This document shows positions 5,523-42,119 of a stretch of 42,956 nt of DNA, one piece after another. The DNA comes from Lachnospiraceae bacterium (GTDB lineage Bacteria; Bacillota; Clostridia; Lachnospirales; Lachnospiraceae). The position numbers and the translations under genes are program-made. The notes beneath the pieces are model-generated. The model did not search any database. It was not told the DNA's origin and saw only the letters and a list, made by a program, of their open reading frames with translations. The stretch covers positions 1 through 42,956 of the forward strand of contig JALELZ010000024.1 of the NCBI GenBank assembly GCA_022768465.1, given 5' to 3'. Positions within the stretch are counted from its first letter, which is position 1, and every line of letters begins with the position of its first letter.

Positions 5523-5546
5523 TACCCATCTCTCCTTAACACTTTT

Positions 5547-5587
5547 ATAAAACACGATTTGTATTTATGCCCCACATCGTGTTTTAT
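5547..5587 (-). promoter_or_regulatory. Perfect 12-bp inverted repeat in the leader of the SNF transporter gene
   Basis: ATAAAACACGAT (5547-5558) and ATCGTGTTTTAT (5576-5587) are exact inverted copies separated by 17 nt, ending about 25 nt before the start codon. In the transcript this forms a hairpin just ahead of the RBS. In DNA it could be an operator. The structure is certain; the role is inference. Confidence 0.55.
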
Positions 5588-5674
5588 GGTGACAAAGTCT
5601 GAATTAATTATATTCAGACTCATTTTAAGCCTAGCTGATTTAATATATCATTTATTCTGATTTATCTCTACATA

Positions 5675-5721
5675 AAAAGAAAAAAACCGGATGCAGTTTA
5701 CGAATAAACAACATCCGGTTT
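5675..5721 (-). terminator. Rho-independent terminator of the hydrogenase operon
   Basis: On the minus strand AAACCGGATG pairs with CATCCGGTTT, and the hairpin is followed by TTTTTTCTTTTT. It lies about 50 nt after the stop of the last hydrogenase gene (5770). Confidence 0.88.
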
Positions 5722-5769
5722 AATTATATTGATTCGATCATGAGATCACTGTATGAATGTGTACGTGAC

Positions 5770-6516
5770 TTATTCAAGCGATCCCATGCTGAGAGCCTTC
5801 TTAGGACAGTTGGTTACACATTGTCCGCATTTAATGCATGTCTCTCTGTCGATTTCCCAGGTCTTTGCCTCTCTGTTAACCTTGATAGCTCCGACCGGGC
5901 ATTTCTTCTCACATAATGTGCAGTAAACACATGAATCTGAGAATATAACTCCCTCAGGTGCAGCTTCCTTGAAAGAAAGAACCTTCTTAGGACACTTTGT
6001 GATACACATTCCGCACTTAACGCACTTATCGTGATCTACAGTCCATGTCTTTGTTGTTCTGTCTACAGTTATAGCCTGCTCAGGACAGCTGCGCATACAG
6101 AGGCCGCAGTAAATACAGTTATCAATATCACACGCAAGCTTTCCGAGAACCTTTTTCTTAAATGTAGTTCCTACAGTGATAAGATCCTCAGGATCCTCAG
6201 CTACCATGTGGTAGTCAGGAGTAAGCTGTATAGCCTTAGTACCGCAGAAATCCTGGCAGTATGCACAGAAGGTGCATGAAGTCATATCGAAGGAACGCTT
6301 GATATTGGTTCCTCCTTCAACCTCTTCCTCTTCTCTGGTAATAGCTAAAGGAGCACATACCTTTATACACATTCCGCAGTCAACGCACTTATCTGCGTCA
6401 AAGCTGATACGTCCTCTGTATCTAGGTTTTCCCATATCCTCAGGATTTGGAAATGGCTCAGCACTCGGCTTTTTGAAAAGATTGATCAGCGCTGTTGTAA
6501 GATAAGGAAACATCAT
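5770..6516 (-). CDS. mbhN: Polyferredoxin subunit of the membrane hydrogenase, six [4Fe-4S] motifs (MbhN/EchF/NuoI-like)
   Basis: A 248-residue iron-sulfur protein and the last gene of the hydrogenase operon, overlapping mbhJ by 4 nt. The N-terminus (residues 1-95) resembles NuoI/MbhN, the two-cluster subunit that passes electrons from reduced ferredoxin toward the small subunit. Six CxxCxxCxxxC motifs are present, starting at residues 44, 81, 134, 165, 196 and 227. Standard MbhN/EchF has two, so the C-terminal half looks like added bacterial-type ferredoxin repeats (for example CIYCGLCMRSCP and CVKCGMCITKCP). It has no membrane segment apart from a short hydrophobic N-terminus and should sit on the cytoplasmic arm. 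The extra clusters suggest a longer electron wire or a docking site for a different donor. Confidence 0.85.
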   Translation of the reverse strand: MMFPYLTTALINLFKKPSAEPFPNPEDMGKPRYRGRISFDADKCVDCGMCIKVCAPLAITREEEEVEGGTNIKRSFDMTSCTFCAYCQDFCGTKAIQLTPDYHMVAEDPEDLITVGTTFKKKVLGKLACDIDNCIYCGLCMRSCPEQAITVDRTTKTWTVDHDKCVKCGMCITKCPKKVLSFKEAAPEGVIFSDSCVYCTLCEKKCPVGAIKVNREAKTWEIDRETCIKCGQCVTNCPKKALSMGSLE

Positions 6517-6959
6517 TTGTGCATAGCCTCCCTCTTCTTCTCAAGTATAAGTGCAGCCTTGTAAAGGCCTTCCATAATAGCCTCAGGCTTTGGAGTGCAG
6601 CCTGCTACCGATACATCTACATGGACATATTTATCGAGAGGTCCGTCGATTCCATAGCTTCCCTTGAAAACATTTCCTGATTTCGGACATGATCCGATAG
6701 AAACTACACATTTAGGCTCCGGAGTCTGCTCAATAGTACGAATAAGTCGGTCTCTTGACTGAACTGTAATAGGTCCTGAAACAACAAGTATATCCGCGTG
6801 TCTCGGAGAACCGGCAAGCTTAAAGCCGAATCTTTCAGCATCGTATCTTGGTGTAAGACATGCAACGATCTCAATATCGCAGCCGTTGCAGGAGCCGGTA
6901 TTCAGATGGAACAGCCATGGCGATTTGGCTGCGCTCTTATCTATAAGTTTCTTAAACAT
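6513..6959 (-). CDS. mbhJ: Hydrogenase small subunit (MbhJ/EchC/NuoB-like)
   Basis: A 148-residue NuoB/PSST-like protein that carries the proximal [4Fe-4S] cluster delivering electrons to the [NiFe] site. The four ligands are visible: CNGC (Cys24, Cys27), GSCPKSG (Cys91) and GCTPKP (Cys121). The length is that of the short group 4 small subunits, which lack the extra cluster domain of uptake hydrogenases. AGGAGG precedes the ATG. It overlaps the polyferredoxin gene by 4 nt, consistent with translational coupling, and follows mbhM by 12 nt. Confidence 0.92.
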   Translation of the reverse strand: MFKKLIDKSAAKSPWLFHLNTGSCNGCDIEIVACLTPRYDAERFGFKLAGSPRHADILVVSGPITVQSRDRLIRTIEQTPEPKCVVSIGSCPKSGNVFKGSYGIDGPLDKYVHVDVSVAGCTPKPEAIMEGLYKAALILEKKREAMHK

Positions 6960-6971
6960 TACCGTACCTCC

Positions 6972-7922
6972 TTACATTCCTATCCATACAAGAATAGTGC
7001 TGACAAGTGCCAGCCCGGCAACAACAGTCCAATAGAATTTAAACAGATGCTCTATCTTAAGTCTTGCTGTAACAGCGTGAATAGTGGTAATGCTGACAAG
7101 CATAACAGCAATACAAATAATAACGAAAAGTACAGCATCTAATGCTACAAAGCCTGTACGAATACCGCCCAAGAACATTGACGTGAAGAGACCTGTCATG
7201 ATGATCATCTTCATGTTAATGCTGAGCTTGAAAAGTGCAAGCGGTGATCCGCTGTACTCAACAAGTGGTCCCTCACAGATCTCATTCTCAGCTTCAGCTA
7301 CATCAAACGGCTGTGTTCCAACCTCTGCAGGTATAACAAGAAGCATTGCAAGTGCAGCCGGGATCATGCTCCAATGAGAAAGCAGTGAACCATTTGCAGC
7401 CTGATATTCCGAAACAAGACTGAGATTAAATACGAGCTGATCTCCTCCGACCTTCTTGGCTACTGTAAGAAGAACAAGTACAAAAGGAAGCTCATATGCC
7501 ATCATGGTTACCATCTCACGTGAGATACCGATACTTGCAAAAGGTGAACCTGATGAAGCTCCTCCTATGATGAGTGCTGCACCCGGAATAGTCACAAGAT
7601 AGAGAATAACTATCATGTCGGCTGCACCATTAATTGCAGTAAACCCGAAAATAGGGATGAAAAGCATTATAAAGCAAAGGCTTACAAAGCTTAACACCGG
7701 TGCTTCTAAGAATGCTGCACGGTTTGCCTTTGCAGGTATGATCGTCTCTTTGCCGAGAAGCTTGAAGAAATCATACATAGGCTGTCTGAGCGGTGGTCCC
7801 ACACGCTTCTGCATATGAGCAATGACTTTTCTGTCAATGCCTGCCATAAACAGTCCTACGGCTATTGTAAATAATGCGCCCGGGAACACAAGAATATAGA
7901 ATACATATCTTAATATAGTCAT
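6972..7922 (-). CDS. mbhM: Membrane-anchor subunit (MbhM/EchB/NuoH-like)
   Basis: A 316-residue membrane protein of the complex I subunit 1 family with about eight helices. Conserved loop motifs are present: KRVGPPLRQPMYDFFKLLGK, and ENEICEGPLVEYSG, the acidic loop that faces the hydrogenase module. It anchors the peripheral electron-transfer arm to the ion-pumping arm and shapes the quinone-like cavity that in hydrogenases transmits the redox signal. Spacing of 12 nt to both neighbours and a GGGGG-type RBS fit a single transcript. Confidence 0.92.
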   Translation of the reverse strand: MTILRYVFYILVFPGALFTIAVGLFMAGIDRKVIAHMQKRVGPPLRQPMYDFFKLLGKETIIPAKANRAAFLEAPVLSFVSLCFIMLFIPIFGFTAINGAADMIVILYLVTIPGAALIIGGASSGSPFASIGISREMVTMMAYELPFVLVLLTVAKKVGGDQLVFNLSLVSEYQAANGSLLSHWSMIPAALAMLLVIPAEVGTQPFDVAEAENEICEGPLVEYSGSPLALFKLSINMKMIIMTGLFTSMFLGGIRTGFVALDAVLFVIICIAVMLVSITTIHAVTARLKIEHLFKFYWTVVAGLALVSTILVWIGM

Positions 7923-7934
7923 TCCTGAACCCCC

Positions 7935-9848
7935 TTATCGCATAAACATAAACATGAATACCACAATAATAGCTGTAGCAATAACTACCATATTGCAGTA
8001 ATCGGTAACACGTCCTGAATGAAGCTCTTCCATTACTCTGTAGTAAGGCTTGAAGTCATACTTATAGCCCCAGAGCATATCTGAACCGCCTACATGTGAA
8101 TAGACAGGCTCTTCTCCTGAGAAGAAGTTAGAGTGCTTCATAGCATTCTTAGGATCAACCTCTACTGTAGCGCCTCTGTCTGACTTAGAGCCGAGGATAA
8201 CGATGAATGCTGCAATAAACACTGTAATAAACAGTATAAGATAAACGATCGGGCTCCATGAGCTAACCATAACATTGCTTACTGCCATGTTATATACTCC
8301 TGCAGCTGCCGCATATCCTTCACCCATCATTACATCGATGTACTTGACTACATCAACAGTAGAACGAACTGCCGGAAGAATGAAGTCTGCTGCGATCGGT
8401 CTGTAGAATATACCTGTGAGCAGGCAAAGTGCTGCAAGTATATACATAGGAACGAGCATGATTGCAGGAGCTTCCTTGACATCCTTGTTCTCTTCTGAAA
8501 GCTGTCCGAAGAATACTGCCTGAGCTATCTTTACAAAAGATGCAAGTGTCATGACAGATACTACGAGCGCTGTAATTGTGATGATGAGGTAATAGAAATT
8601 ACCTGTCTCCGCTGCCTTTGTATAAGCTGCCTGATAGATAAGCCACTTGGAAGCAAAGCCGTTAAACGGCGGAAGTCCTGAAATTGCTGCTGCTCCGAAA
8701 AGGAAGCAAACAGTAGTATGAGGCATTCTCTTTGAAAGTCCGCCTAACTTATCGAGATTAGTAACTCCGCCTGTCTGGTGTAAAACAGCACCTGCAGCAA
8801 GGAAGAGAAGTCCCTTGAACAGCATATGGTTCATTGCATGGAATATTCCGCCTGTAAGACCGAGCGCTGTGCCTAAGCCTGCTGCTGTTATGATATATCC
8901 GACCTGAGAGATACTATGAAACGCAAGCAATCTCTTAAAGTCATGCTGAGCAAGAGCCATTGATACACCGACAAACATTGTCACTGCACCGAAAGCTGTA
9001 ATGATTATCTGCATCTGTGTAAGATCCATAGCTCTGAACATGATATATATGCAGCGGATCATTCCGTAAACACCTGCCTTGGTAACAACTCCTGAAAGCA
9101 CCATTGAAATAGGTGAAGGAGCAACCGCATGTGCATCAGCAAGAGGTGTATGGAAAGGAACCATGAAGCTCTTAACACCGAAGCCTGCTACTGTAAGTGC
9201 AAATGCAAGCAGAGTTGTTGGTGTAAGTCCGCCTGAAAGCATTGAAGCAAGCTGAGCAATATTAAGTGTATGGCACTGAAGATAAATAAGTGCAATACCT
9301 GTAAGTATGAAGCCTGATCCGAGTGAGCAAAGAACAAGATACTTAAGTGCAGCCTCAAGTGCTCCGTCCTTGTCTGTAATGAATCCGGTAAGTGCAACTG
9401 CTGAGAAGGTCATGATTTCTACCATGATATACATGTTGAAAAGATCCCCTGTCATGCAGAAGCCGAGTATCGAACCGCAAAGCATCATGAACAATGTATA
9501 ATAATGTCCGAGATGATGCTCACCCTTCATATATCCGAAGGAGTAAAGGTTTGATATCCAGAATGCTGTTATTGCAATGATTGCAAATACAAGACCGAGT
9601 GCATCGACCTCATAGCCGATACCGATAGCATAGCCTGCAACCGGCTCCCAGTTACCCATCCAATATGCAATTACTCCGCCGTCAATGATTATCGGCTTAA
9701 TAAGTGCATATACAAGACCTGCAACAACAGTAAATGTAATAAAGCTAATGGCATTTCTTACCGCCGCATTTTTTGATCCGAAGATCTCAATAAGGAAAGC
9801 TCCGAGGAACATACCCATAACGGCAAGAACAGGAAAATGCTGTATCAT
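7935..9848 (-). CDS. mbhH: Ion-translocating antiporter-like subunit (MbhH/MrpD/NuoN-like) with C-terminal extension
   Basis: A 637-residue protein of the NuoL/M/N and MrpD family with about 14 core helices plus an extra C-terminal part. The proton-channel landmarks are visible: an acidic residue in MYIMVEIMTFSAVALTG, the HxPLADAHAVAPSP-type loop (HTPLADAHAVAPSPISMVLS) and a lysine in HAMNHMLFKGLLFLAAG. Standard MrpD/MbhH is around 500 residues. After about residue 525 there is an added hydrophobic helix, a soluble stretch (FSGEEPVYSHVGGSDMLWGY, then FKPYYRVMEELHSGRVTDY) and a final membrane helix. No separate mbhI gene exists in the operon, so this tail may replace it. It overlaps mbhG by 4 nt. 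Confidence 0.92.
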   Translation of the reverse strand: MIQHFPVLAVMGMFLGAFLIEIFGSKNAAVRNAISFITFTVVAGLVYALIKPIIIDGGVIAYWMGNWEPVAGYAIGIGYEVDALGLVFAIIAITAFWISNLYSFGYMKGEHHLGHYYTLFMMLCGSILGFCMTGDLFNMYIMVEIMTFSAVALTGFITDKDGALEAALKYLVLCSLGSGFILTGIALIYLQCHTLNIAQLASMLSGGLTPTTLLAFALTVAGFGVKSFMVPFHTPLADAHAVAPSPISMVLSGVVTKAGVYGMIRCIYIMFRAMDLTQMQIIITAFGAVTMFVGVSMALAQHDFKRLLAFHSISQVGYIITAAGLGTALGLTGGIFHAMNHMLFKGLLFLAAGAVLHQTGGVTNLDKLGGLSKRMPHTTVCFLFGAAAISGLPPFNGFASKWLIYQAAYTKAAETGNFYYLIITITALVVSVMTLASFVKIAQAVFFGQLSEENKDVKEAPAIMLVPMYILAALCLLTGIFYRPIAADFILPAVRSTVDVVKYIDVMMGEGYAAAAGVYNMAVSNVMVSSWSPIVYLILFITVFIAAFIVILGSKSDRGATVEVDPKNAMKHSNFFSGEEPVYSHVGGSDMLWGYKYDFKPYYRVMEELHSGRVTDYCNMVVIATAIIVVFMFMFMR

Positions 9849-10204
9849 CCGCGCAACCTCCTTACATCATCGACATTGATGCTGCCGTACTTTTTCTTAA
9901 TCATGACTACGATTGCAAGAGACATAGCATTTACGCAGGCACCGATAACGATGCTGGTAAGTGTAAGTGCCTGAGGAACCGGGTCAACGAAGAACTGTGC
10001 CGAAACACCGTTCAAAAGGTCTGACATCTGATATACAGGAACAGAGCCGCCGTCATTGAAGCCTGTGCTGACTATAAGCAGATTCACGCCGTAATCTATA
10101 ATGCTGAGTCCGATAATGGTCTTCAGCAGATTTTTCTGTGTGCAAACGGCATAAAGTCCGAGGACGATAAGCAGAATGCATGCTATATAGTTAAATATCG
10201 TCAT
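9845..10204 (-). CDS. mbhG: MrpC/NuoK-like membrane subunit (MbhG)
   Basis: A 119-residue protein with three membrane helices and the NuoK/MrpC-type segment LKTIIGLSIIDYGVNLLIV. In Mrp antiporters and the Mbh complex this subunit packs beside MrpD/MbhH and lines part of the ion pathway. It lies 5 nt after mbhF and overlaps mbhH by 4 nt. The C-terminus (KKKYGSINVDDVRRLRG) is cytoplasmic and basic. The family call is secure from both sequence and operon position. Confidence 0.9.
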   Translation of the reverse strand: MTIFNYIACILLIVLGLYAVCTQKNLLKTIIGLSIIDYGVNLLIVSTGFNDGGSVPVYQMSDLLNGVSAQFFVDPVPQALTLTSIVIGACVNAMSLAIVVMIKKKYGSINVDDVRRLRG

Positions 10205-10209
10205 AAGAA

Positions 10210-10833
10210 TTATGCCTCCTTGCCTTCTAAGCTCTGTGCATTATCCGCTGCAGGCTCAGCATTTGCTTCAGCAGATTTCTCTGCCTTGATCTCACTGAGA
10301 AGCTTAGCATCCTTACCCGGAACAACAGGTGCCGGTGCAGGATCGATCTTCTGCGGCTTAACAGGCTTTTTATCACTTGAATCAGGTCCTAAGAGTCCGA
10401 GCATAAGTATAAGCAGGAATCCAACACCTGTAAGTACCTTATAACCTACGGTATAACCCATAAAGGTTACGGTTCCGGCTGAAATAACATCTCCGACAGC
10501 ACCGTTATCAAACAGCCAGTTACGGCAGAAATTCATGCCTGTAAGAATACCTGAAAGACCAAGTATTACGTATATACTTGCACCGATTGCCTCGTTTATA
10601 CGAAGGACCTCAGGGTTAACTGTAAGTGTTGTCTTGTCATAGCCGTATGCAAGATACAGGAACAGTATAGCGGATGCAACCGTTACACCACCCTGGAAAC
10701 CTCCTCCTGGACTGACTGTACCGTAAATAATGATATAGAGTCCGAAGGTAAGTGCAAAAGGAAGTATGCGATCGGCACCACATCTGACTATGATATTTTT
10801 CTCATGAATACCTTCTTTGAAATGCATCTTCAT
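10210..10833 (-). CDS. mbhF: MrpB-like membrane subunit (MbhF) with Pro/Ala-rich tail
   Basis: A 207-residue protein. Residues 1-145 are an MrpB domain with four helices and the conserved YGTVSPGGGFQGGVTVASAI segment. Family members are mostly about 140-150 residues. Here the C-terminal 55-60 residues form a charged Pro/Ala/Lys-rich tail (KPVKPQKIDPAPAPVVPG and an EKSAEANAEPAAD stretch), probably disordered and cytoplasmic. It shares one base with mbhE (TGATG), so the two are translationally coupled. In Mbh the MrpB-like subunits belong to the Na+/H+ translocating half of the membrane arm. The role of the tail is unknown. Confidence 0.88.
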   Translation of the reverse strand: MKMHFKEGIHEKNIIVRCGADRILPFALTFGLYIIIYGTVSPGGGFQGGVTVASAILFLYLAYGYDKTTLTVNPEVLRINEAIGASIYVILGLSGILTGMNFCRNWLFDNGAVGDVISAGTVTFMGYTVGYKVLTGVGFLLILMLGLLGPDSSDKKPVKPQKIDPAPAPVVPGKDAKLLSEIKAEKSAEANAEPAADNAQSLEGKEA

Positions 10834-11195
10834 CAGGCTTCACCTCCGTCTTCTTCCTTTTTAGGCTTTTTGTAGCCGTTCAGGATAACGTAAGCTCCTG
10901 CAATTGCTGTAAGAAGTATGAATGACTCACCGATGGTATCAAAACCTCTGAAGTCGAATACTACTGCAGCTACGTTGTTGGCAGCCTTGGTCTTTTCGAG
11001 GTTTTCCTTTACTATGATCTCGGCAACACCGCTTGCGTTATTTACAGAATAGTCATCCGGATGATAATAAAGATCAACTACGTCTGTCTGTCTTCCGTCA
11101 TATGTCAGAGCCAGATCCCTGTAGGCATAATCAACCGAGAATATTCCGCACACAAGAATGATAAAGAGTGAAAGGATAGTAAGTGCTTTTCTCAT
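10833..11195 (-). CDS. mbhE: Membrane hydrogenase subunit MbhE
   Basis: A 120-residue protein with an N-terminal helix, an external loop of about 55 residues and a second helix in the conserved VVFDFRGFDTIGESFILLT segment typical of MbhE and of the C-terminal part of MrpA. It overlaps mbhD by 4 nt. In the Mbh complex MbhD and MbhE together replace the C-terminal part of MrpA and are thought to take part in Na+ handling. The family is recognised by motif and gene order. Confidence 0.88.
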   Translation of the reverse strand: MRKALTILSLFIILVCGIFSVDYAYRDLALTYDGRQTDVVDLYYHPDDYSVNNASGVAEIIVKENLEKTKAANNVAAVVFDFRGFDTIGESFILLTAIAGAYVILNGYKKPKKEEDGGEA

Positions 11196-11449
11196 TTCTC
11201 CTCATCCTCCTTTGATGTTGTTTTTCTAACCGCAATAACAAAAATTACTGTTGAAAGAACTGCTCCTACCGAAGCCTCGGCAATAGCAACGTCCGGTGCC
11301 TGCAGCAAAATGAACTCAAGTGACATGAACGCTCCGGTTACACCCAAAGCAATGACTGATGAGAGCATATGCTTAAATGCTATTGCACAGACAGCGGAAA
11401 CAAGAATGCCGGTGAGGACAAGCGCATTAAGAATAACTACAAGATTCAT
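11192..11449 (-). CDS. mbhD: Membrane hydrogenase subunit MbhD (DUF4040)
   Basis: An 85-residue, three-helix protein with the DUF4040 signature LLQAPDVAIAEASVGA, equivalent to a segment of MrpA. It overlaps its neighbours on both sides by 4 nt (ATGA-type junctions). In Mbh it joins MbhE to complete an MrpA-like ion site. It is short but clearly homologous and fixed in the usual MbhC-D-E order. Confidence 0.9.
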   Translation of the reverse strand: MNLVVILNALVLTGILVSAVCAIAFKHMLSSVIALGVTGAFMSLEFILLQAPDVAIAEASVGAVLSTVIFVIAVRKTTSKEDEEK

Positions 11450-11796
11450 TCCTCTTCCTCCTCTACCATATCTTCTCCGTATTTATCACAGACCATTTCC
11501 TTATCAGGTCTGACACCGTGCTTATATGCACCCTTCATGATAGCGTGGCTCGATATCGGGCTTGTTACCAGATAAAAAACTCCCATGATAAGAAGCTTAA
11601 CTACCATGCCGCCGTCATGAAGATAAAAGCCTGAGTAAAGTACTCCGCCTATAATAACTCCGAGTACTCCGAGGGTAGTTATATTACCGCTCGCATGTAT
11701 TCTTGTGAATGTATCAGGAAATCTTATTATTCCCATAGTTCCTGCAAAAGCAAAGAATACACTGATTGCAACAAATACATCTATAGCGATTCTCAT
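11446..11796 (-). CDS. mbhC: MrpG-like subunit (MbhC)
   Basis: A 116-residue protein with three helices and the MrpG signature GTMGIIRFPDTFTRIHASGN. The C-terminus is very acidic (EDMVEEEEE). MrpG/MnhG proteins are part of the multi-subunit Na+/H+ antiporter and of Mbh hydrogenases. It overlaps both neighbours by 4 nt. The catalytic contribution of MrpG is not well understood even in model systems. Confidence 0.9.
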   Translation of the reverse strand: MRIAIDVFVAISVFFAFAGTMGIIRFPDTFTRIHASGNITTLGVLGVIIGGVLYSGFYLHDGGMVVKLLIMGVFYLVTSPISSHAIMKGAYKHGVRPDKEMVCDKYGEDMVEEEEE

Positions 11797-12053
11797 AGTC
11801 TTCCCTCCAGATAACGTGATGTAATAACCGATCCGAGGAAACCGAGGATAGCTGTTATAAGTGCAAGATCAAGGAATACGCTTCTTCCGCTGTATAAAGC
11901 AAAAAGAATGAGCGCCATATCCGTAAGCACATCCAAACAGTCGGCAGTTACTGCTCTGTCAGCAGCACTCGGTCCTACTATAAGTCTGTAGAACAGACAA
12001 AGGGCCATAACTATGAAACATATAGCAAAGAATACAAATTCTTCAAAGATCAT
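11793..12053 (-). CDS. mbhB: MrpF-like subunit (MbhB)
   Basis: An 86-residue protein with three helices and the MrpF motif RLIVGPSAADRAVTADCLDV. It fits the MrpE-F-G order and overlaps both neighbours by 4 nt. In Mrp complexes this small subunit is needed for assembly and ion exchange. The conserved acidic residue in the middle helix region (DCLDVLTDMALI) is present. Confidence 0.9.
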   Translation of the reverse strand: MIFEEFVFFAICFIVMALCLFYRLIVGPSAADRAVTADCLDVLTDMALILFALYSGRSVFLDLALITAILGFLGSVITSRYLEGRL

Positions 12054-12595
12054 CCCCAGATACCCTTTACCTTTCTTTCAAATTTGCCTTTTATCATCTC
12101 TCCTGCCTCAGCCGGCTCCTGAGTGGCTACATCTATCCAGTGTACATAGTAATATGTCTGATCGTCCTGATCTACGATATCCATAGTAACTGTTCCCGGT
12201 GTAAGAGTTATTGAATCGGCAACAAGTGCCATTCCGTAATCTGACTGAACATCAACCGGTATCTTAACAATACCTGGATTAAGCTTTGGCTTGATGCTAA
12301 GTGCTCTTTTAGCCACATCAAGGTTTGCCTTTACGAGTTCAACAGGGAATATGAGGAACAGGTAAACTAAAAGCTTAACAAGTCTTGCCGGATTCCAGAG
12401 GAACCATGGGCTGTTATTGATAAGGAATCTTCCGCTGAACCATCCTGAGAATAAGCTGACACATATTCCTATCACTATGGACTGCAGTGATACATTTCCG
12501 TTAAAAATCGCTGTCAGCTGACCGGTGATAACAAGCCAGAACAGAAAGCACAGTACAGCCGTCGACATCATAGCCGGAAAACTGCTCTTCTTCAA
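12050..12595 (-). CDS. mbhA: MrpE-like subunit (MbhA)
   Basis: A 181-residue protein with two or three N-terminal helices and a cytoplasmic C-terminal domain containing the MrpE-type LVADSITLTPGTVTMDI segment. It is the first gene of the Mrp module, 15 nt after hypB. MrpE proteins take part in assembly of the antiporter. The length is slightly longer than the usual 155-170 residues, the difference being at the C-terminus. Confidence 0.9.
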   Translation of the reverse strand: MKKSSFPAMMSTAVLCFLFWLVITGQLTAIFNGNVSLQSIVIGICVSLFSGWFSGRFLINNSPWFLWNPARLVKLLVYLFLIFPVELVKANLDVAKRALSIKPKLNPGIVKIPVDVQSDYGMALVADSITLTPGTVTMDIVDQDDQTYYYVHWIDVATQEPAEAGEMIKGKFERKVKGIWG

Positions 12596-12610
12596 AATCT
12601 ACACCTCCGT

Positions 12611-13270
12611 TTACTTTCCGGTCTTTTCGCTTATTTTAGCGGAAAGCCATGAAATTAGCTCATCAAGTCCGTCGCAGGTCTTGTTTGATACTTTAAATAT
12701 AAGTGCATCAGGATTTGCATCCTTTTCGTTCTTTTCGACTCTTTCAACATCGAAATCGAAATACGGAAGCATATCGAACTTATTAAGAACAAGTGCATCC
12801 GTGGTTGAGAACATCAGTGGATACTTTTCAACCTTATCGTCACCCTCAGGTATGCTTAATATCGCAACTCTGAGATCCTCACCGATATTAAATTCGGCAG
12901 GGCAAACAAGGTTTCCGATATTCTCGACAAATATGACATCTAACTTGTCGAGGTCAAACATAGGAAGCATGTTCTGAATGCTCATTGCCTCAATATGACA
13001 TGCACCGTCAGTCTGAAGCTGAACTACAGGGATACCCATCGCATCGATCTTATCAGCATCTATCTGTCCTGCAATGTCTCCCTCAATAACGCCTATAGCA
13101 TATTTGTCCTTAAGTCTGTTTATTATCTGAGTGATGAGGCTTGTTTTTCCTGCCCCCGGTGATCCCATGACATTTATGAGAGCCACCTTTTTATCGGCTA
13201 ATTCATCGATTACAGCCTTGCTGACATCCTCATTCCACTCGAGTATCTGTTTAACTATCTTAATTTCCAT
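12611..13270 (-). CDS. hypB: Hydrogenase nickel insertion GTPase HypB
   Basis: A 219-residue GTPase that delivers nickel to the hydrogenase large subunit precursor together with HypA. The P-loop GSPGAGKTS is at residues 36-44, the metal-binding DGACHIEA motif is present, as are FVENIGNLVCPAEFNIGE and the NKFD guanine-binding motif. There is no histidine-rich nickel-storage N-terminus. It is 6 nt after hypA and 15 nt before mbhA, so the maturation genes are embedded within the structural operon. Confidence 0.95.
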   Translation of the reverse strand: MEIKIVKQILEWNEDVSKAVIDELADKKVALINVMGSPGAGKTSLITQIINRLKDKYAIGVIEGDIAGQIDADKIDAMGIPVVQLQTDGACHIEAMSIQNMLPMFDLDKLDVIFVENIGNLVCPAEFNIGEDLRVAILSIPEGDDKVEKYPLMFSTTDALVLNKFDMLPYFDFDVERVEKNEKDANPDALIFKVSNKTCDGLDELISWLSAKISEKTGK

Positions 13271-13276
13271 CTGTGT

Positions 13277-13618
13277 TTATTCAGCCTCCACGCTGTCCAC
13301 ATAATATTCCTTGCCGGAAATTATTTTAAAACCGGTGCCTCCGCACTCCGGGCACTTGAAATGCCCTATCTTTATGACCCCGTCATATCCGCAGTCCGGA
13401 CACTTTATGGTCACCGGAACCTTCTCAATAACTATCTTTGCTCCTTCTGCCACAGTATCCCTTGAGGCTATGTCAAAATAGTAATTAATGCACTCAGGTA
13501 CTACACCGGAAAGCTCTCCTATTCGAAGCTTTATTGAAAGCACCTTGTTGACATTATATTTTTCAACCTCGGGTATTACTGCTTCAAGTATGCCCTCTAC
13601 TATACTAAGCTCATGCAT
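13277..13618 (-). CDS. hypA: Hydrogenase maturation nickel metallochaperone HypA
   Basis: A 113-residue protein starting MHELSIVEGI, where His2 and the free N-terminus bind nickel. The structural zinc site is formed by two CxxC pairs (CPDCGYDG and CPECGGTG, about residues 74-92). HypA hands nickel to HypB and the large subunit. It lies directly between mbhL and hypB. The RBS is weak (AAAGG), but the conserved N-terminus fixes the start. Confidence 0.95.
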   Translation of the reverse strand: MHELSIVEGILEAVIPEVEKYNVNKVLSIKLRIGELSGVVPECINYYFDIASRDTVAEGAKIVIEKVPVTIKCPDCGYDGVIKIGHFKCPECGGTGFKIISGKEYYVDSVEAE

Positions 13619-13630
13619 GATATGCCTTTA

Positions 13631-14713
13631 TTATCTGTCCATACATGAGAAGCAAGGATCAATGCTGGCGATGATGAGTCCTGCATCTGCTACTGAATTG
13701 CCCTTGAGCATTGTAGGAACTGTAGGTGCATTCTTAAATGTAGGTACATGTATGCTGACTCTTGCAGGCTTATCTGTACCGTTGGCAGCAACGAAGTAGC
13801 TGAGCTGACCTCTCGGAGCCTCATGTCTCATCATGTACTCACCCTTCTGTATTGTAGGGATCTTATTACCCATGTTGATAGGGCCCTTCGGCATGTTCTT
13901 GAATGCCTGTCTGATGATCTTGATACTCTCGAAGCATTCTAAAAGTCTGACAACCACTCTCGCAAATACATCGCAGGTATGGTATGTAGCAATGTTGAAC
14001 TCAAACTCATCGTATGCCAGATACGGAGCATCCTTTCTGACATCCACTGCAACGTTTGATGCTCTTGCGTGAGGTCCGATTGCTCCGAGTGTAAGCGCAT
14101 CCTCTGTTGTAAGTACTCCGACTCCCTGTGTTCTTAAAGCTACTGTCTTATCGTTAAGTACAAAGTCTGTGAGTACCTTGAGATCCTCCTCATATTCATC
14201 AAGAGCCTTCTCAACCTGCTCCATCTGATCCTTGGTAATGTCTCTTCTTACTCCGCCGAAAATAGCTATTCCGTAGTTAACACGGTTTCCTGTAAGAAGT
14301 TCAAGCATATCCATGATTTTCTCACGATCGTCCCATGACTTCATGAATAAGCTGTCATGACCGATATTGTGAAGAGCAACTCCAACCCAGAGTGCATGTG
14401 AATGAAGTCTCTCAAGCTCACTGATGATGACATTGATATACTGTGATCTCTTGGATGGTGTAACACCGGCTATTGCTTCACAGGTCATTGTAAATGTCAT
14501 CGCATGTGAATGTGAACAGATACCGCACACACGCTCAACAAGCGTTGTTGTCTGGATATAGTTTCTGTCCATGGCGATCTTCTCGATGCCTCGGTGGTTA
14601 TATCCTATAAATATCTCTGCGTCCTTTATAAGCTCTCCCTCTGTGATGAGTCTTGCATGTACAGGCTCTTCAAGAGAAGGATGGTAAGGTCCTATAGGTA
14701 CTATATAACTCAT
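13631..14713 (-). CDS. mbhL: [NiFe] hydrogenase large subunit (MbhL/EchE-like)
   Basis: A 360-residue catalytic subunit. Both nickel-binding cysteine pairs are present: CGIC at residues 63-66 (ERVCGICSHSHA) and DPCFSC near the C-terminus (Cys354, Cys357). Thus it is a true hydrogenase rather than a NuoD-type subunit that has lost the site. The protein ends three residues after the last cysteine (MDR), so there is no cleavable C-terminal propeptide; this is known for some group 4 enzymes such as CooH. Size and sequence place it with the group 4 energy-converting enzymes. It makes H2 from protons with electrons from the small subunit. Neighbours are mbhK (5 nt upstream) and hypA (12 nt downstream). 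Confidence 0.94.
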   Translation of the reverse strand: MSYIVPIGPYHPSLEEPVHARLITEGELIKDAEIFIGYNHRGIEKIAMDRNYIQTTTLVERVCGICSHSHAMTFTMTCEAIAGVTPSKRSQYINVIISELERLHSHALWVGVALHNIGHDSLFMKSWDDREKIMDMLELLTGNRVNYGIAIFGGVRRDITKDQMEQVEKALDEYEEDLKVLTDFVLNDKTVALRTQGVGVLTTEDALTLGAIGPHARASNVAVDVRKDAPYLAYDEFEFNIATYHTCDVFARVVVRLLECFESIKIIRQAFKNMPKGPINMGNKIPTIQKGEYMMRHEAPRGQLSYFVAANGTDKPARVSIHVPTFKNAPTVPTMLKGNSVADAGLIIASIDPCFSCMDR

Positions 14714-14718
14714 TTCCT

Positions 14719-15108
14719 TTAATCCTCCTTCTTGTATCTGTTATCTATAAGCTCATCCATAGGTGTTACTATTATATGACCCTGTCCGCTTAGCATAGTA
14801 TCCGGAAGGAAAAGCCTCTTTGAGGTATCAAGTCCTTCGAATACAAATCCGAAAAGCTCGTTTAGCTCTCTCTCAGGCCAGGCAGCAGCCTCGCTGTAAA
14901 ACTCGGATATTGACGGCACAGTGCTCTCACCTACTACGGTATATGACTCGATCACAGTATCTATCTGATATTCATATGAAATATGCGGTATGTTCTCCTC
15001 GTCAAGATATCCGTGTATCATGGAAAGAATCACTCCGTCCTTACGCATCCTGTGCGCAACAGGAATTATCTCATCCTTTGTTATAGGGATTTTTCTGTAC
15101 TCCTGCAT
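14719..15108 (-). CDS. mbhK: NuoC-like subunit (MbhK/EchD)
   Basis: A 129-residue protein of the complex I 30-kDa family. The signature segment WPERELNELFGFVFEGL is clear, followed by RLFLPD. It is a cofactor-free scaffold of the peripheral arm that holds the large and small subunits. AAGGAG precedes the ATG. It is 58 nt after hypC and 5 nt before mbhL. Confidence 0.9.
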   Translation of the reverse strand: MQEYRKIPITKDEIIPVAHRMRKDGVILSMIHGYLDEENIPHISYEYQIDTVIESYTVVGESTVPSISEFYSEAAAWPERELNELFGFVFEGLDTSKRLFLPDTMLSGQGHIIVTPMDELIDNRYKKED

Positions 15109-15166
15109 AAAAATTCTCCTTAAATATAATACATACTAATAAGCAGTAAACTGCCTTTAAACGTGT

Positions 15167-15400
15167 TTACGGAGCAGTCTCTCCGAGTGCCTCCTCAAGC
15201 GCCTTCCACGCTTCGAGATTCTCCTCAGCCTGCTCATTCTTCAGCTTTTCTATGGCAAATCCTGCATGGACTACCACGTAGTCTCCCACCATAGGCTCCT
15301 TTATAAAATTGATCTTGATATTACGGCTGACACCATCTCTTTCGGCGACAGCATCGGTTCCGTTTATTTCTGTAAGCCTTAACGGCACTGCTAAGCACAT
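15167..15400 (-). CDS. hypC: Hydrogenase assembly chaperone HypC
   Basis: A 77-residue chaperone starting MCLAVP, where Cys2 binds the iron carrying CN and CO ligands and contacts the large subunit precursor. The VGDYVVVHAGFAIEKL segment is conserved. It is the first gene of the operon. HypD, HypE and HypF, needed to make the Fe(CN)2CO group, are not in the window and must be encoded elsewhere if this enzyme matures normally. Confidence 0.95.
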   Translation of the reverse strand: MCLAVPLRLTEINGTDAVAERDGVSRNIKINFIKEPMVGDYVVVHAGFAIEKLKNEQAEENLEAWKALEEALGETAP

Positions 15401-15584
15401 ATACCTATCCTGATGACTGCTTATAAATAAAGTAAATGACTATTTTTTAACAAAAACTCCCCAAAAAAAATGCGGTTCAAATACTTTTACATACATTAAA
15501 GACTGATCAAGAAACCGTATAGATCCCGGCAGATCACAGCCTAAGCAGATGCTTATAACAGTTTTGAAACCACAAGTTGCGATA

Positions 15585-15602
15585 TTGTTATTTGTGTAAC
15601 AA
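15585..15602. promoter_or_regulatory. Rex-like operator 1
   Basis: TTGTTATTTGTGTAACAA is an 18-bp inverted repeat (TTGTTA, 6-nt spacer, TAACAA). It matches the outer bases of the Rex consensus TTGTTAANNNNTTAACAA. It abuts the minus-strand -10 candidate TATACT at 15604-15609. Rex senses NADH/NAD+ and represses fermentation and hydrogen genes in Firmicutes, so the match is meaningful in this place. Binding is inferred. Confidence 0.6.
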
Positions 15603-15603
15603 A

Positions 15604-15632
15604 AGTATAGCATGAAGCTGTTAATTTATTAA
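15604..15632 (-). promoter_or_regulatory. Candidate promoter of the hydrogenase operon
   Basis: On the minus strand TATACT (15604-15609) is a -10 candidate, with TTAATA at 15627-15632 as a -35 at 17 nt spacing. The -35 falls inside Rex-like site 2 and the -10 is next to Rex-like site 1. The -35 is a weak match, so the promoter is proposed mainly from the arrangement. Confidence 0.4.
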
Positions 15633-15635
15633 CTA
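15618..15635. promoter_or_regulatory. Rex-like operator 2
   Basis: CTGTTAATTTATTAACTA contains the perfect palindrome GTTAATTTATTAAC and keeps the TGTTAANNNNTTAAC core of the Rex consensus, with two or three outer mismatches. It is centred 33 bp from site 1, about three helical turns, so two dimers could bind the same face. Confidence 0.55.
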
Positions 15636-15891
15636 ATATTTATATGATTATTGTATTTTTGTTAAAACACTTAATAAACTATTTTCATAATATGTGCACA
15701 ATATACAAAATACTCGTTAAGTTTTATTTCATATATCGATTGACATCTCGTAAATATTCAGTGAGACACTTAATTAATAAAAATCAGCTGTATTGCTATT
15801 TCAGAATTTCTTACAAATTCCTGAATTCACACTATTAAATCCTTATTTTCTGAAAAAAGTATTGCATTATCGTCAGCATTGTGTAATATCT

Positions 15892-15928
15892 GTATTAAGA
15901 CAACTAATACACGTATTACACTTAATAC
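15892..15928. promoter_or_regulatory. GTATTA/TAATAC operator-like repeats before the GntR gene
   Basis: GTATTA (15892-15897) with TAATAC (15905-15910), and GTATTA (15913-15918) with TAATAC (15923-15928), form two palindromes with 7- and 4-nt spacers. YtrA-type GntR repressors commonly bind such inverted repeats ahead of their own operon, so autoregulation by the 15997 gene is likely. A looser pair, GCTGTA/TACAGC, follows at 15933-15957. Confidence 0.5.
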
Positions 15929-15996
15929 ACTTGCTGTATTTAATTGCTTACTACAGCTAAACATTATTACTATTCAAATTCAGAAAGGAGACAGCG

Positions 15997-38582: not shown

Positions 38583-41500
38583 ATGACTCGTAAAATGAAG
38601 TCAATGGACGGTAATAACGCAGCCGCTCACGTTTCTTATGCATTCAGTGAAGTTGCAGCTATTTACCCAATAACACCGTCCAGCCCAATGGCCGATCTTG
38701 TCGACCAGTGGTCAGCAAACGGACTTAAGAACATCTTTGGTACCAGAGTAAAGGTAGTTGAGATGCAGTCAGAGGCCGGTGCAGCAGGTGCTGTTCACGG
38801 TTCACTCGGATCAGGTGCTCTTACATCTACTTATACCGCTTCACAGGGACTTCTTCTGATGATCCCTAATATGTACAAGATCGCTGCAGAGCAGCTTCCT
38901 TGCGTATTCCACGTTTCAGCACGTACCGTTGCTACTCAGGCACTCAACATTTTCGGAGATCATTCCGATGTTATGGCATGTCGTCAGACCGGCTTTGCAA
39001 TGCTTTGCGAAGGCAATGTACAGGAAGTTATGGATCTTTCTCCGGTAGCTCATCTTGCAGCTATTGAAGGCAAGGTTCCGTTCATCAACTTCTTCGACGG
39101 ATTCCGTACCAGCCATGAGATCCAGAAGATCCAGGTATGGGATTTCGATGACCTTAAGGACATGTGCAACATGGAGGCTGTTAAGGAGTTCCGTGAGCAT
39201 TCACTTAACCCTGAGCATCCTCATATGAGAGGTTCACACGAGAACGGAGATACATTCTTCCAGCATCGTGAGGCCTGCAATAAGTTCTATGATGCACTTC
39301 CTGACGTAGTTGAAAAGTACATGGGCAAGATCAACGAGAAGCTCGGTACAAATTATCAGCTCTTCAACTACTACGGTGCACCGGATGCAGAGCGTGTTAT
39401 CATTGCTATGGGATCTATCTGTGACGTTGCTGAGGAGGTTATTGATTACCTTAACGCTCACGGCGAAAAGGTTGGTCTTGTAAAGGTTCGTCTCTATCGT
39501 CCTTTCAGAGCAGACAAGCTTATCGAGGCTATCCCACAGACAGCTAAGAAGATCGCTGTTCTTGACCGTACAAAGGAGCCTGGAGCACAGGGCGAGCCGC
39601 TTTATCTTGATGTTGTTACAGCTCTTGCAAATGCAGGAATCACTGACAGAACAGTTATCGGCGGACGTTATGGTCTTGGTTCAAAGGATACACCTCCTTC
39701 ATCAGTATTTGCAGTATATGATGAGCTTAAGAAGGCAGCGCCTCTTCGTCAGTTTACTATCGGTATCACAGATGATGTTACCAACCTCTCACTTAAAGAG
39801 GATAAGAACTGCCCTAACACTGCAGCTGAAGGAACTATCGAGTGTAAGTTCTGGGGTCTTGGCGGTGACGGAACTGTTGGTGCCAACAAGAACTCTATTA
39901 AGATCATCGGTGACCACACAGATAAGTTCGTACAGGCATATTTCCAGTACGATTCAAAGAAGACCGGCGGCGTAACTATCTCCCACCTTCGTTTCGGAGA
40001 CAAGCCTATCCGCAGCCCATACTACATCAACAAGGCTGACTTTGTTGCCTGCCATAACCCTTCATACATTACAAAGGGCTTCAAGATGGTAGATGACGTA
40101 AAGCCGGGCGGAATCTTCATGATCAACTGCCAGTGGGATTTTGATGAGCTCAATCACCACTTAAAGGCAGAGGCAAAGCGTTATATCGCTAAGAATAACA
40201 TTCAGCTCTACACCATCAATGCTATCGACCTTGCTATCGAGATTGGTATGGGTAAGAGAAACAATACTATCCTTCAGTCAGCATTCTTCTCACTTGCAAA
40301 GGTAATGCCTGAGGCTGAGGCTATCCAGTACATGAAGGATGCCGCAACTCATTCTTACCTCAAGAAGGGACAGGATGTCGTAGACATGAACCACAAGGCT
40401 ATCGATCTCGGTGCAACAGCATACAAGAAGATCGAGGTCCCAGCTGATTGGGCTAATGCAGTTGATACTGATGAGCCTGAGATTCTTAAGGGTAAGGCTG
40501 AGCTTGTTAAGCAGGTTCAGGATCTTCTTGATCCTATCGGACGTATGGACGGTGACAGCATTCCTGTATCAAAGTTCATGCCTCACGTTGACGGACAGTT
40601 TGAGCTTGGTGCTTCTGCATATGAGAAGAGAGGCGTTGCAGTATCAGTTCCTACATGGGATCCTGAAAAGTGTATCCAGTGTAACCGCTGTGCTTATGTA
40701 TGTCCTCACGCTACTATTCGTCCGTTTGCACTTACAGAAGAAGAAGTTAAGGCAGCTCCGGCTGCAATCAAGACTGCTGATATCAAGGCAGGCGCAGGCA
40801 AGGGAACATATAAATTCTCAATGGCTATCTCACCGCTTGACTGTATGGGATGTGCTGTCTGCATCAGCATGTGTCCTGTAAAGGCAATCACAATGGTTCC
40901 ACAGGAGCAGGAACTTCCACAGCAGGAAGTATTCAACTACTGTGTATATGAGACTTCAGAGAAGAAGGATATGCAGGATAACTCAGTTAAGGGCAGCCAG
41001 TTCAAGCAGCCTATGCTCGAGTTCTCAGGCTCATGCGCCGGCTGTGCAGAGACAAGCTATGCTCGTCTTGTAACTCAGCTTTACGGAGATCACATGTATA
41101 TCTCTAATGCTACAGGATGTTCTTCTATCTGGGGCGGTCCTGGTGCTACATCACCTTACTGCACAAACAAGGAAGGTCACGGACCTGCATGGTGCAACTC
41201 ACTGTTCGAGGATAACGCTGAGCACGGTCTCGGAATGTTCGTTGGACAGGATACCATAAGAACAAGCCTTGCTGAGCAGACAAAGGAGCTTATTGCTCTT
41301 CCTCACGTACAGCCTGCACTTAAAGATGCAGCTCAGAAGTGGCTTGATACCATGAAAGATACAGCTGCAAATGCAGAAGCTTCAAAGGCTTATGTTGCTG
41401 CTCTTGAAGCAAACGCTTCAGCAGTTGACATTGCCGCAGATATCCTTGATAAGAAGGAATACCTCGCTAAGAAGTCTATGTGGATCTTCGGCGGAGACGG

Positions 41501-42119
41501 CTGGGCATACGATATCGGTTACGGCGGACTTGATCATGTTATCGCACAGAACAAGAATGTAAACATCTTCGTATTCGATACTGAGGTTTATTCAAACACA
41601 GGCGGACAGGCTTCTAAGTCTTCTAACATCGGTCAGGTTGCACAGTTTGCAGCTGCCGGTAAGGAAGTTAACAAGAAGAGCCTTTCAGAGATAGCTATGC
41701 AGTACGGCTATGTATACGTAGCACAGGTTGCTATGGGTGCAGACCCTGCTCAGACAATCAAGGCTATCACAGAAGCTGAGGCATATGACGGACCATCACT
41801 TATCATCGGATACAGCCCATGTGAGATGCACTCAATCAAGGGCGGAATGGCTAACTGCCAGATGGAGATGAAGAAGGCTGTAGATTGCGGTTATTGGAAC
41901 CTCTTCCGCTTCAACCCTGCTGCTGAGACCAAGTTCACACTTGATTCAAAGGCACCTGTAGGCGGATATAAGGAATTCCTTATGAATGAGGCTCGTTATT
42001 CAAGACTTACTCGTGAGTTCCCGGATCGTGCAGAAGGACTCTTCGAGCGTAACGAGGAAGCAGCTAAGGAGCGCTACGAGCATCTTACAAGACTTATAGA
42101 TCTCTACGACAGAAAATAA
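38583..42119 (+). CDS. nifJ: Pyruvate:ferredoxin (flavodoxin) oxidoreductase, single-chain
   Basis: A 1178-residue homodimeric enzyme that oxidises pyruvate with CoA to acetyl-CoA and CO2 and reduces ferredoxin. Domains in order: TPP pyrimidine domain (YPITPSSPMADLVDQW near residue 20), transketolase C-terminal-like domain, gamma domain (about 420-600), a 2[4Fe-4S] ferredoxin domain (CIQCNRCAYVCP from residue 697 and CMGCAVCISMCP near 753), then the TPP-binding domain with the proximal cluster (CAGCAETSYARL near 818) and GGDGWAYDIGYGG near 971 followed by DTEVYSNTGGQASKS. AAGGAGG precedes the ATG. It supplies reduced ferredoxin, the presumed substrate of the hydrogenase encoded at 5770-15400. 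Strong codon bias suggests high expression. Confidence 0.97.
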   Translation: MTRKMKSMDGNNAAAHVSYAFSEVAAIYPITPSSPMADLVDQWSANGLKNIFGTRVKVVEMQSEAGAAGAVHGSLGSGALTSTYTASQGLLLMIPNMYKIAAEQLPCVFHVSARTVATQALNIFGDHSDVMACRQTGFAMLCEGNVQEVMDLSPVAHLAAIEGKVPFINFFDGFRTSHEIQKIQVWDFDDLKDMCNMEAVKEFREHSLNPEHPHMRGSHENGDTFFQHREACNKFYDALPDVVEKYMGKINEKLGTNYQLFNYYGAPDAERVIIAMGSICDVAEEVIDYLNAHGEKVGLVKVRLYRPFRADKLIEAIPQTAKKIAVLDRTKEPGAQGEPLYLDVVTALANAGITDRTVIGGRYGLGSKDTPPSSVFAVYDELKKAAPLRQFTIGITDDVTNLSLKEDKNCPNTAAEGTIECKFWGLGGDGTVGANKNSIKIIGDHTDKFVQAYFQYDSKKTGGVTISHLRFGDKPIRSPYYINKADFVACHNPSYITKGFKMVDDVKPGGIFMINCQWDFDELNHHLKAEAKRYIAKNNIQLYTINAIDLAIEIGMGKRNNTILQSAFFSLAKVMPEAEAIQYMKDAATHSYLKKGQDVVDMNHKAIDLGATAYKKIEVPADWANAVDTDEPEILKGKAELVKQVQDLLDPIGRMDGDSIPVSKFMPHVDGQFELGASAYEKRGVAVSVPTWDPEKCIQCNRCAYVCPHATIRPFALTEEEVKAAPAAIKTADIKAGAGKGTYKFSMAISPLDCMGCAVCISMCPVKAITMVPQEQELPQQEVFNYCVYETSEKKDMQDNSVKGSQFKQPMLEFSGSCAGCAETSYARLVTQLYGDHMYISNATGCSSIWGGPGATSPYCTNKEGHGPAWCNSLFEDNAEHGLGMFVGQDTIRTSLAEQTKELIALPHVQPALKDAAQKWLDTMKDTAANAEASKAYVAALEANASAVDIAADILDKKEYLAKKSMWIFGGDGWAYDIGYGGLDHVIAQNKNVNIFVFDTEVYSNTGGQASKSSNIGQVAQFAAAGKEVNKKSLSEIAMQYGYVYVAQVAMGADPAQTIKAITEAEAYDGPSLIIGYSPCEMHSIKGGMANCQMEMKKAVDCGYWNLFRFNPAAETKFTLDSKAPVGGYKEFLMNEARYSRLTREFPDRAEGLFERNEEAAKERYEHLTRLIDLYDRK

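Follow-up and report, generated by a model that had tools for sequence, protein, structure and literature searches.

Hydrogen in the gut is usually credited to [FeFe] hydrogenases, and Ech is the known energy-conserving [NiFe] alternative. Here we analysed a stretch of 42,956 nucleotides (the window; contig JALELZ010000024.1 of assembly GCA_022768465.1) from a Lachnospiraceae bacterium, in which one operon is probably that of a membrane-bound [NiFe] hydrogenase with Mbh architecture that oxidises ferredoxin and evolves H2. The redox chemistry of Pyrococcus MBH is thought to set up a proton gradient that is then exchanged for sodium through MbhABC, and H2 production by membranes is not altered when MbhABC is lost (PMC8415708). 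HydDB describes its group 4d as 'ferredoxin-coupled, Mrp-linked' and its group 4g as a loose cluster whose role is undetermined (PMC5037454). Loh et al. 2021 split 4g into six lineages, state that no 4g enzyme has been characterised biochemically, and describe all Mbh subunits in a different order in Thermosphaera 4g-5 (PMC7886697). Greening 2019 mentions Clostridium and finds 4g hydrogenases to be among those expressed most highly in rumen data (PMC6776011), and the Mrp-linked hydrogenase of Saganbacteria is described as closest to those of Pelobacter and Clostridia (PMC6349859, presumably Carnevali et al. 2019). Hackmann and Firkins report MbhLKJ in none of 62 butyrivibrio genomes, with Ech and Rnf common (PMC4478896). 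Searches of open-licence PMC papers, judged by titles and the starts of abstracts, listed no description of the present clade or of a variable MbhN in Clostridia; HydDB-based surveys may already be counting these genes under 4d or 4g.

Like the MBH of Pyrococcus furiosus (4d, PDB 6cfw), the window operon has subunits J, K, L, M, N, D, E, G, H, I, A, B, C and F, the NiFe ligands and the presumed antiporter residues. It differs in carrying K and L at the front, hyp genes inside and MbhI fused to MbhH, and its clade differs in forming separate L, M and H clades, in an MbhN extended by zero to four two-cluster units and in that no maturation protease was found. With the Ech (4e) of Lachnospiraceae it shares a ferredoxin-linked energy-converting [NiFe] design and a large subunit without a C-terminal extension. 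Unlike Ech, where the EchF-type subunit had 2 motifs in 15/15 rows, it has an Mrp sodium module and a separate MbhL clade. Eha/Ehb and Mvh of methanogens likewise have hydrogenase-attached polyferredoxins with even cluster numbers (6 in EhaP, 10 in EhaQ, 12 in MvhB and 14 in EhbK; PMC3087415), but these are separate genes, whereas the window array is part of the same protein as the MbhN core, and its length varies among close relatives. What is new here is a predicted hydrogenase of Mbh architecture in gut Clostridia with its own lineage, an H-I fusion, an apparently protease-free large subunit and a variable polyferredoxin arm.

Operon organisation and subunits

The operon consists of 16 intact co-directional genes running from 15400 to 5770 on the minus strand, in the order hypC, mbhK-like, mbhL, hypA, hypB, mbhA to mbhG, mbhH(I), mbhM, mbhJ and mbhN (Table 1). 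Every open reading frame (ORF) was found where the initial annotation had placed it; the gaps between them are, in order, 58, 5, 12, 6, 15, −4, −4, −4, −4, −1, 5, −4, 12, 12 and −4 nt. The genome containing the operon, which belongs to Lachnospiraceae and of which the window is contig 30, comprises 1,862,304 bases in 33 contigs at 96% completeness and has a single gene of the 49-kDa/large-subunit family. Gene names rest on Pfam and NCBIfam profiles in agreement, and the top solved-structure match of L, H, M, J and the C-terminal part of MbhH was P. furiosus MBH (6cfw).

All modules expected of a complete operon in a Clostridia chromosome were identified, as had been proposed. The hydrogenase module (J, K, L, M and N) was found in full, with K identified by its 30-kDa family only; the proton module (D, E, G, H and I; Pfam MbhD, MbhE, Oxidored_q2 and Proton_antipo_M) is complete with I as a fusion; and the Mrp-like sodium module (A, B, C and F, corresponding to MnhE, F, G and B) is complete. 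The 16 ORFs fit the families given in the initial annotation, with three corrections: MbhI is fused to MbhH, MbhL stops without a C-terminal extension, and the polyferredoxin is MbhN plus two added units.

Both NiFe cysteine pairs were confirmed in the 360-residue MbhL (CGIC at residues 63-66 and CFSC at 354-357), and they are invariant in the alignment. The claim that this is a true hydrogenase stands, as the ligands are kept and the complex I rows of our MbhL tree form a separate cluster (7 rows, support 100/100); the same two observations exclude a non-hydrogenase reading (complex I-like or Ehr).

A missing MbhI was considered and refuted, because MbhI forms the last ~105 residues of the 637-residue MbhH. 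Aligned with 6cfw_H, MbhH has in common the E of YIMVEIM, the K of GFGVKS, the H of PFHT, the K of VVTK, HxxNHxxxK in IFHAMNHMLFKG and the K of FASKW, which we take to be the antiporter residues. In L090 and L172, two loci from other Bacillota genomes (G684 and G383), H (522-523 residues) and I (110-113 residues) are separate. Haja and Adams (PMC8415708) equate the N-terminal part of MbhI with the C-terminal helices of MbsH', an antiporter subunit of MBS, so the H-I fusion has a precedent.

Table 1 Features of the hydrogenase operon and associated elements in the window.
Feature	Position	Strand	Evidence
hypC, maturation chaperone, operon gene 1	15167..15400	-	TIGR00074 82.7 bits, cut-off 48
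mbhK-like 30-kDa subunit, 129 aa	14719..15108	-	PF00329 E 2e-10
mbhL, [NiFe] large subunit, 360 aa	13631..14713	-	6cfw_L E 4e-80; L1 CGIC, L2 CFSC
hypA, nickel chaperone	13277..13618	-	TIGR00100 102 bits, cut-off 88
hypB, GTPase	12611..13270	-	TIGR00073 238 bits
mbhA (MnhE-like), sodium module, TTG start	12050..12595	-	PF01899 E 1.4e-40
mbhB (MnhF-like), sodium module	11793..12053	-	PF04066 E 8.6e-12
mbhC (MnhG-like), sodium module	11446..11796	-	PF03334 E 1.1e-21
mbhD, proton module	11192..11449	-	PF13244 MbhD E 5e-20
mbhE, proton module	10833..11195	-	PF20501 MbhE 28.7 bits, cut-off 27
mbhF (MnhB-like), sodium module	10210..10833	-	PF04039 E 4.7e-22
mbhG (MnhC/NuoK-like, Oxidored_q2)	9845..10204	-	PF00420 E 1.8e-24
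mbhH, 637 aa, antiporter-like with fused MbhI	7935..9848	-	6cfw_H E 5.7e-86, residues 13-511
MbhI-like C-terminal part of mbhH, residues 529-633	7950..8264	-	6cfw_I E 3.4e-8
mbhM (NuoH-like), membrane anchor	6972..7922	-	6cfw_M E 4.9e-40
mbhJ, small subunit (Oxidored_q6)	6513..6959	-	6cfw_J E 2.4e-52
mbhN, polyferredoxin, 6 C..C..C...C motifs	5770..6516	-	6cfw_N residues 3-112, E 5.5e-16
Residues 117-248 of mbhN, comprising two added two-cluster ferredoxin units	5770..6168	-	31-residue motif spacing; units aligned
Strong intrinsic terminator 3' of mbhN	5680..5721	-	stem and T tract, -19.8 kcal/mol for 49-nt stretch
PFOR, 1178 aa, separate locus, likely source of reduced ferredoxin	38583..42119	+	POR_N, POR, PFOR_II, EKR, Fer4

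Phylogenetic placement, distribution and maturation

The phylogeny that the initial annotation had proposed as a check was run against sampled group 4 rows (63 MbhL rows, of which one, Pyrococcus, is archaeal), and the window clade was recovered with support of 100/100. It lay apart from complex I, from a 4d clade made up of Pyrococcus MbhL, L090 and L172 (98/94), from Ech (15 rows, 100/100) and from a group with usually three antiporter-like subunits (13 rows, 96/88). In this tree the window lineage is distinct from the sampled 4d and Ech clades. Approximately unbiased (AU) tests gave a borderline P = 0.048 for joining the window clade with the three-antiporter group. The window clade came out as sister to FHL and ehf rows (80/91), a position we did not use because of a program warning that long branches meet at this point. 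In a tree of J, the window clade held together (99), unlike the 4d rows. The first reading as an Mbh-type ion-pumping hydrogenase is mostly supported: Mbh-type is secure as architecture but not as phylogeny, and, to the extent that a single archaeal reference can show, the lineage stands by itself.

It could be argued that the operon is an ordinary HydDB 4d Mbh, and that long branches and thin sampling produced its separate clade artificially. No module subunit is missing, the best structure matches are to Mbh, joining with 4d was not rejected (AU P = 0.125), and L090 and L172 show that a 4d-like Mbh does occur in Bacillota. We nevertheless consider this unlikely: the 4d rows, one of them archaeal, also grouped together without the window clade in trees of M (86) and H (97) made by a quick method with SH-aLRT support only, and gene order, H-I fusion, absent C-terminal extension and expansion of N all differ from 4d. 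An Ech-like relative that gained an Mrp module, with Ech enzymes of the same families as its nearest catalytic kin, seems about equally improbable. The clade MbhL lacks a C-terminal extension, as the Ech rows do, and joining with Ech was not rejected (AU P = 0.36), but in the L tree Ech is a clade by itself, the sampled Ech loci yielded no Mrp A to G subunits, and the top solved structures for M, H and J are those of Mbh, in match lists that contained no Ech.

Two other kinds of locus were seen among the sampled hydrogenases. The group with usually three antiporter-like subunits (L067-L075, L178-L181) is 47-52% identical to the window MbhL and bears a C-terminal extension. Three further group 4 loci (L076, L077 and L176) have a giant antiporter subunit of ~1085-1285 residues; the first cysteine motif of L176 is CSLC, and no CGIC was seen in L076 or L077.

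MbhL of the window clade was found in 7/25 genomes of the genus sample (76-100% identity), in 8/299 family-wide genomes (66-100%, own genome included) and in 2/398 phylum-wide genomes, namely our own and G428 (63%). The nearest relative, at 86%, is from G012, which is placed in the same genus. A scan of contigs with two patterns, by which a single gene may be counted twice, returned at least 564 stretches encoding relatives, and the best 80 were kept (62-86% identity). The titles of these 80 name Lachnospiraceae (n = 22), Oscillospiraceae (n = 19), Clostridiales (n = 13), Ruminococcaceae (n = 8) and others (n = 18); many name ruminant gut samples, and some name no gut. Three of the 80 are not marked as metagenome-assembled genome (MAG) or uncultured: Pseudoflavonifractor sp. 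An44, Clostridiales bacterium NK3B98 and Lachnoclostridium sp. Marseille-P6806. Lachnospiraceae and Oscillospiraceae rows are mixed in the MbhL tree, which suggests transfer between families, if the MAG labels hold. The window operon belongs to a patchy but recurrent lineage and is not an oddity of one genome.

A comparison of gene order, also proposed initially, showed that a contiguous run of L, hypA, (hypB), A to H, M, J and N is shared by 57 of the best 80 loci; the other 23 had contig-end cuts or swapped, missing or doubled subunit assignments. Since relatives repeat the operon, with a single clade each for MbhL, M, J and H, and the order is kept in 57/80, the operon is not a chance assembly. 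The initial annotation had also stated that hyp genes are embedded among the structural genes, which is true of the window but varies in relatives: hypB is missing from the run in 39/57 contiguous loci, and elsewhere hypC and K are found downstream of N, hypC by ~2 kb. The order hypC, K, L, hypA, hypB, A-G, HI, M, J, N is, as had been noted, unlike the archaeal one, which we take to be A to N with a separate I, as also seen in L090. An archaeal-type Mbh order was found in 2/45 non-clade loci examined, L090 and L172, the latter without a detected K.

The window MbhL terminates exactly at ...DPCFSCMDR, without a C-terminal extension, and DPCFSCxDx is the end of the protein in 94/94 MbhL rows of the clade (duplicates of the same genomes counted). 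Extensions are present on the MbhL of L090, L172 and the three-antiporter group. The maturation protease HycI (PF01750) was absent in 15/15 carrier genomes, three of which are <80% complete, and present in 6/6 control genomes whose large subunit bears an extension; the genomes of L090 and L172 contain it. As MbhL ends at its second cysteine pair, no maturation endopeptidase is predicted to be needed, and the window MbhL apparently requires no C-terminal proteolysis.

The remaining maturation genes, a hypF-hypD-hypE cluster, lie on another contig of the same genome, which thus holds all of HypA-F. HypD was found in 15/33 genomes: 7/7 carriers in the genus, 8/8 further carriers and 0/18 non-carriers in the genus (Fisher P = 2e−6 for association with MbhL, uncorrected for kinship). 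The region around this cluster (L197; C29:118000-137900 of the same genome, positions 4232-16739) encodes, around hypF-hypD-hypE and ahead of hydF, two nitrogenase-component-1-like proteins (892 and 499 residues, NifE-like) and a 527-residue ORF without a family match.

The polyferredoxin subunit MbhN

The window MbhN has six cysteine motifs, at residues 44, 81, 134, 165, 196 and 227, with the MbhN core at about residues 1-116. Its best solved match is the methanogen polyferredoxin MvhB, and 6cfw_N ranks lower, over the first 112 residues. For comparison, 86 locus records were reduced to 73 with mbhN beside mbhJ, 67 of them complete, and to 65 rows after removal of identical MbhL. It should be noted that ORF starts were set farthest upstream, so that some N-termini are overlong. 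Across the 65 rows, 2 motifs were found in 16, 4 in 27, 6 in 14 (window included), 8 in 4 and 10 in 3, counts that may be affected by the collapse of repeats in short-read assemblies, and a motif is not proof of a cluster. The number was even in 64/65 rows. The exception, L144, has 3 motifs and was omitted from the 64-row tree; its frame looks shifted in the repeat region, which may reflect genuine decay or a misassembly of the tandem units. For control, motifs were counted in the closest matching subunit of 40 other loci of group 4 or complex I, with 2 motifs in 38, 1 in 2 and never more than 2; a 41st locus (L083) had no matching subunit.

The first pair of motifs, that of the core, is spaced 37-43 residues apart, and later pairs are spaced exactly 31 residues apart in 76/79 cases and 28-29 in 3. 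The extra motifs of MbhN come in pairs, as two-cluster units. Of the joints between units (n = 79), 37 are of at least 45 residues, of which 26 have at least 35% alanine plus proline, a level that no shorter joint reaches, compared with 11.6% inside the units. The joints of the window MbhN are 41 and 19 residues long with 12 and 16% alanine plus proline, so such tethers belong to relatives and not to the window itself.

On the 64-row MbhL tree, motif number required at least 15 changes, as opposed to a mean of 32.1 when shuffled, which indicates that MbhN length is inherited yet has been repeatedly altered. Two adjacent units in L141 are 93% identical as protein and 94% as DNA, pointing to a recent duplication there. 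The 2-motif forms make up one branch (16 rows, support 93), with tails rich in alanine, lysine and proline (38-52%). All three apparent isolates carry this form, and the longer forms are known from MAGs only.

We tentatively propose that MbhN is a length-tunable electron antenna, comparable to swinging lipoyl arms, in which a core would be followed by zero to four 2[4Fe-4S] domains acting as built-in ferredoxins or an electron buffer. Their number would be tuned repeatedly by duplication and loss, in a separate lineage of sodium-module hydrogenases that would stand in for the large [FeFe] hydrogenase in some gut Clostridia. The added domains may be packed closely in the window and tethered by linkers rich in alanine and proline in longer forms. 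If this proposal is true, the pump could store many electrons or dock several donors together.

Genomic context and predicted function

Four POR-domain genes were found in the genome of the window, one being the PFOR that the initial annotation had named as feeding the complex, and which is indeed present. The Rnf marker PF03116 was found in this genome, in 20/25 genus genomes (own included, one below cut-off) and in 1/8 carriers outside the genus (G359). PF02906, the [FeFe] hydrogenase family, has one gene here, of the monomeric group B (TIGR04105), and no match in carriers G001, G013, G024 and G299. Among genus genomes at least 75% complete, a PF02906 ORF of at least 575 residues (group-A size) was present in 17/17 non-carriers as against 2/6 carriers (P = 0.0017, uncorrected; of these large proteins only that of G014 was read and none was family-scanned). 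Replacement of the large [FeFe] hydrogenase by the NiFe pump within the genus is thus possible.

The simplest account of the operon is that of a fermenter disposing of ferredoxin electrons as H2 via an ion pump. PFOR would reduce ferredoxin, whose electrons would enter through the six-motif iron-sulfur array of MbhN and be passed by MbhJ to the NiFe site of MbhL, where protons would be reduced to H2. This redox step would drive protons through M, D/E, G and H; their movement would then be exchanged for that of sodium by the module of A, B, C and F, as described for Pyrococcus MBH. Together with Rnf, the fermenter would have a second ferredoxin-linked ion pump. The coupling ion (Na+ or H+), the H2-evolving direction and the rate are inferred.

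Several observations weigh against this account. MbhL lies outside the 4d clade, which makes an argument from kinship alone weaker than the architecture suggests; the MbhE score is barely above its cut-off, and the K-like subunit is short. The [FeFe] replacement is not strict, with a large [FeFe] hydrogenase kept in G004 and G008 of the genus and in G272, G276 and G290 outside it (3/8 carriers), and the genus carriers without one appear to fall in just two lineages. G012 holds an Ech-like locus besides Mbh. The genome of the window has two ATP-synthase rotor-family loci, judged by eye to be V-type-like with LPGTQG and F-type-like; LPGTQG is presumably a sodium-type motif and the F-type-like rotor has no clear one, and the coupling ion cannot be read from sequence.

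It is still less likely than the two alternatives above that the complex runs in reverse, using the ion gradient to reduce ferredoxin from H2 (a direction proposed for some group 4 enzymes), which is available in the gut and could be supplied by the group B [FeFe] hydrogenase: the four POR-domain genes already make reduced ferredoxin, and CdhC/AcsB had no match in the genome or in 18/20 others, with weak matches in carriers G294 and G299 (controls without an acetogen, AcsB sensitivity uncontrolled), which leaves no obvious need for low-potential electrons from H2 and is a weak argument against an H2-consuming acetogen. In support of reversal, HydDB calls Ech-type enzymes physiologically reversible (PMC5037454). 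A formate hydrogenlyase was ruled out, as no formate dehydrogenase was found among the 16 operon genes and 9 other scanned genes of the window.

Just past the terminator lies a symporter of the SNF family (sodium:neurotransmitter; 4152-5555, minus strand), which we did not count as part of the system. Its homologues were distant (31-34%, E ≤ 1e−20) and occurred in 6/93 locus records, all upstream of mbhL; none was found behind mbhN, where 53/67 named loci with mbhN in the run reach at least 1.8 kb beyond it. An ORF resembling an IS30-type transposase by eye (2116-3231, plus strand) lies ~2.5 kb past the operon end. A promoter scan gave 41 sites where 34.6 were expected, and no promoter is claimed; Rfam and tRNA scans of the window gave no matches.

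With the lineage described here, common gut families would gain a pump related to complex I and equipped with a sodium module, in a design best known from heat-loving archaea and found here in a separate gut lineage. The maturation route of the lineage is apparently protease-free, and its electron-input arm varies by two-cluster steps, giving a natural series of 2 to 10 motifs on one machine that would make the role of polyferredoxins in hydrogenases directly testable. It is also a candidate, and only a candidate, for the identity of part of the unresolved group 4 hydrogenases expressed in rumen surveys.

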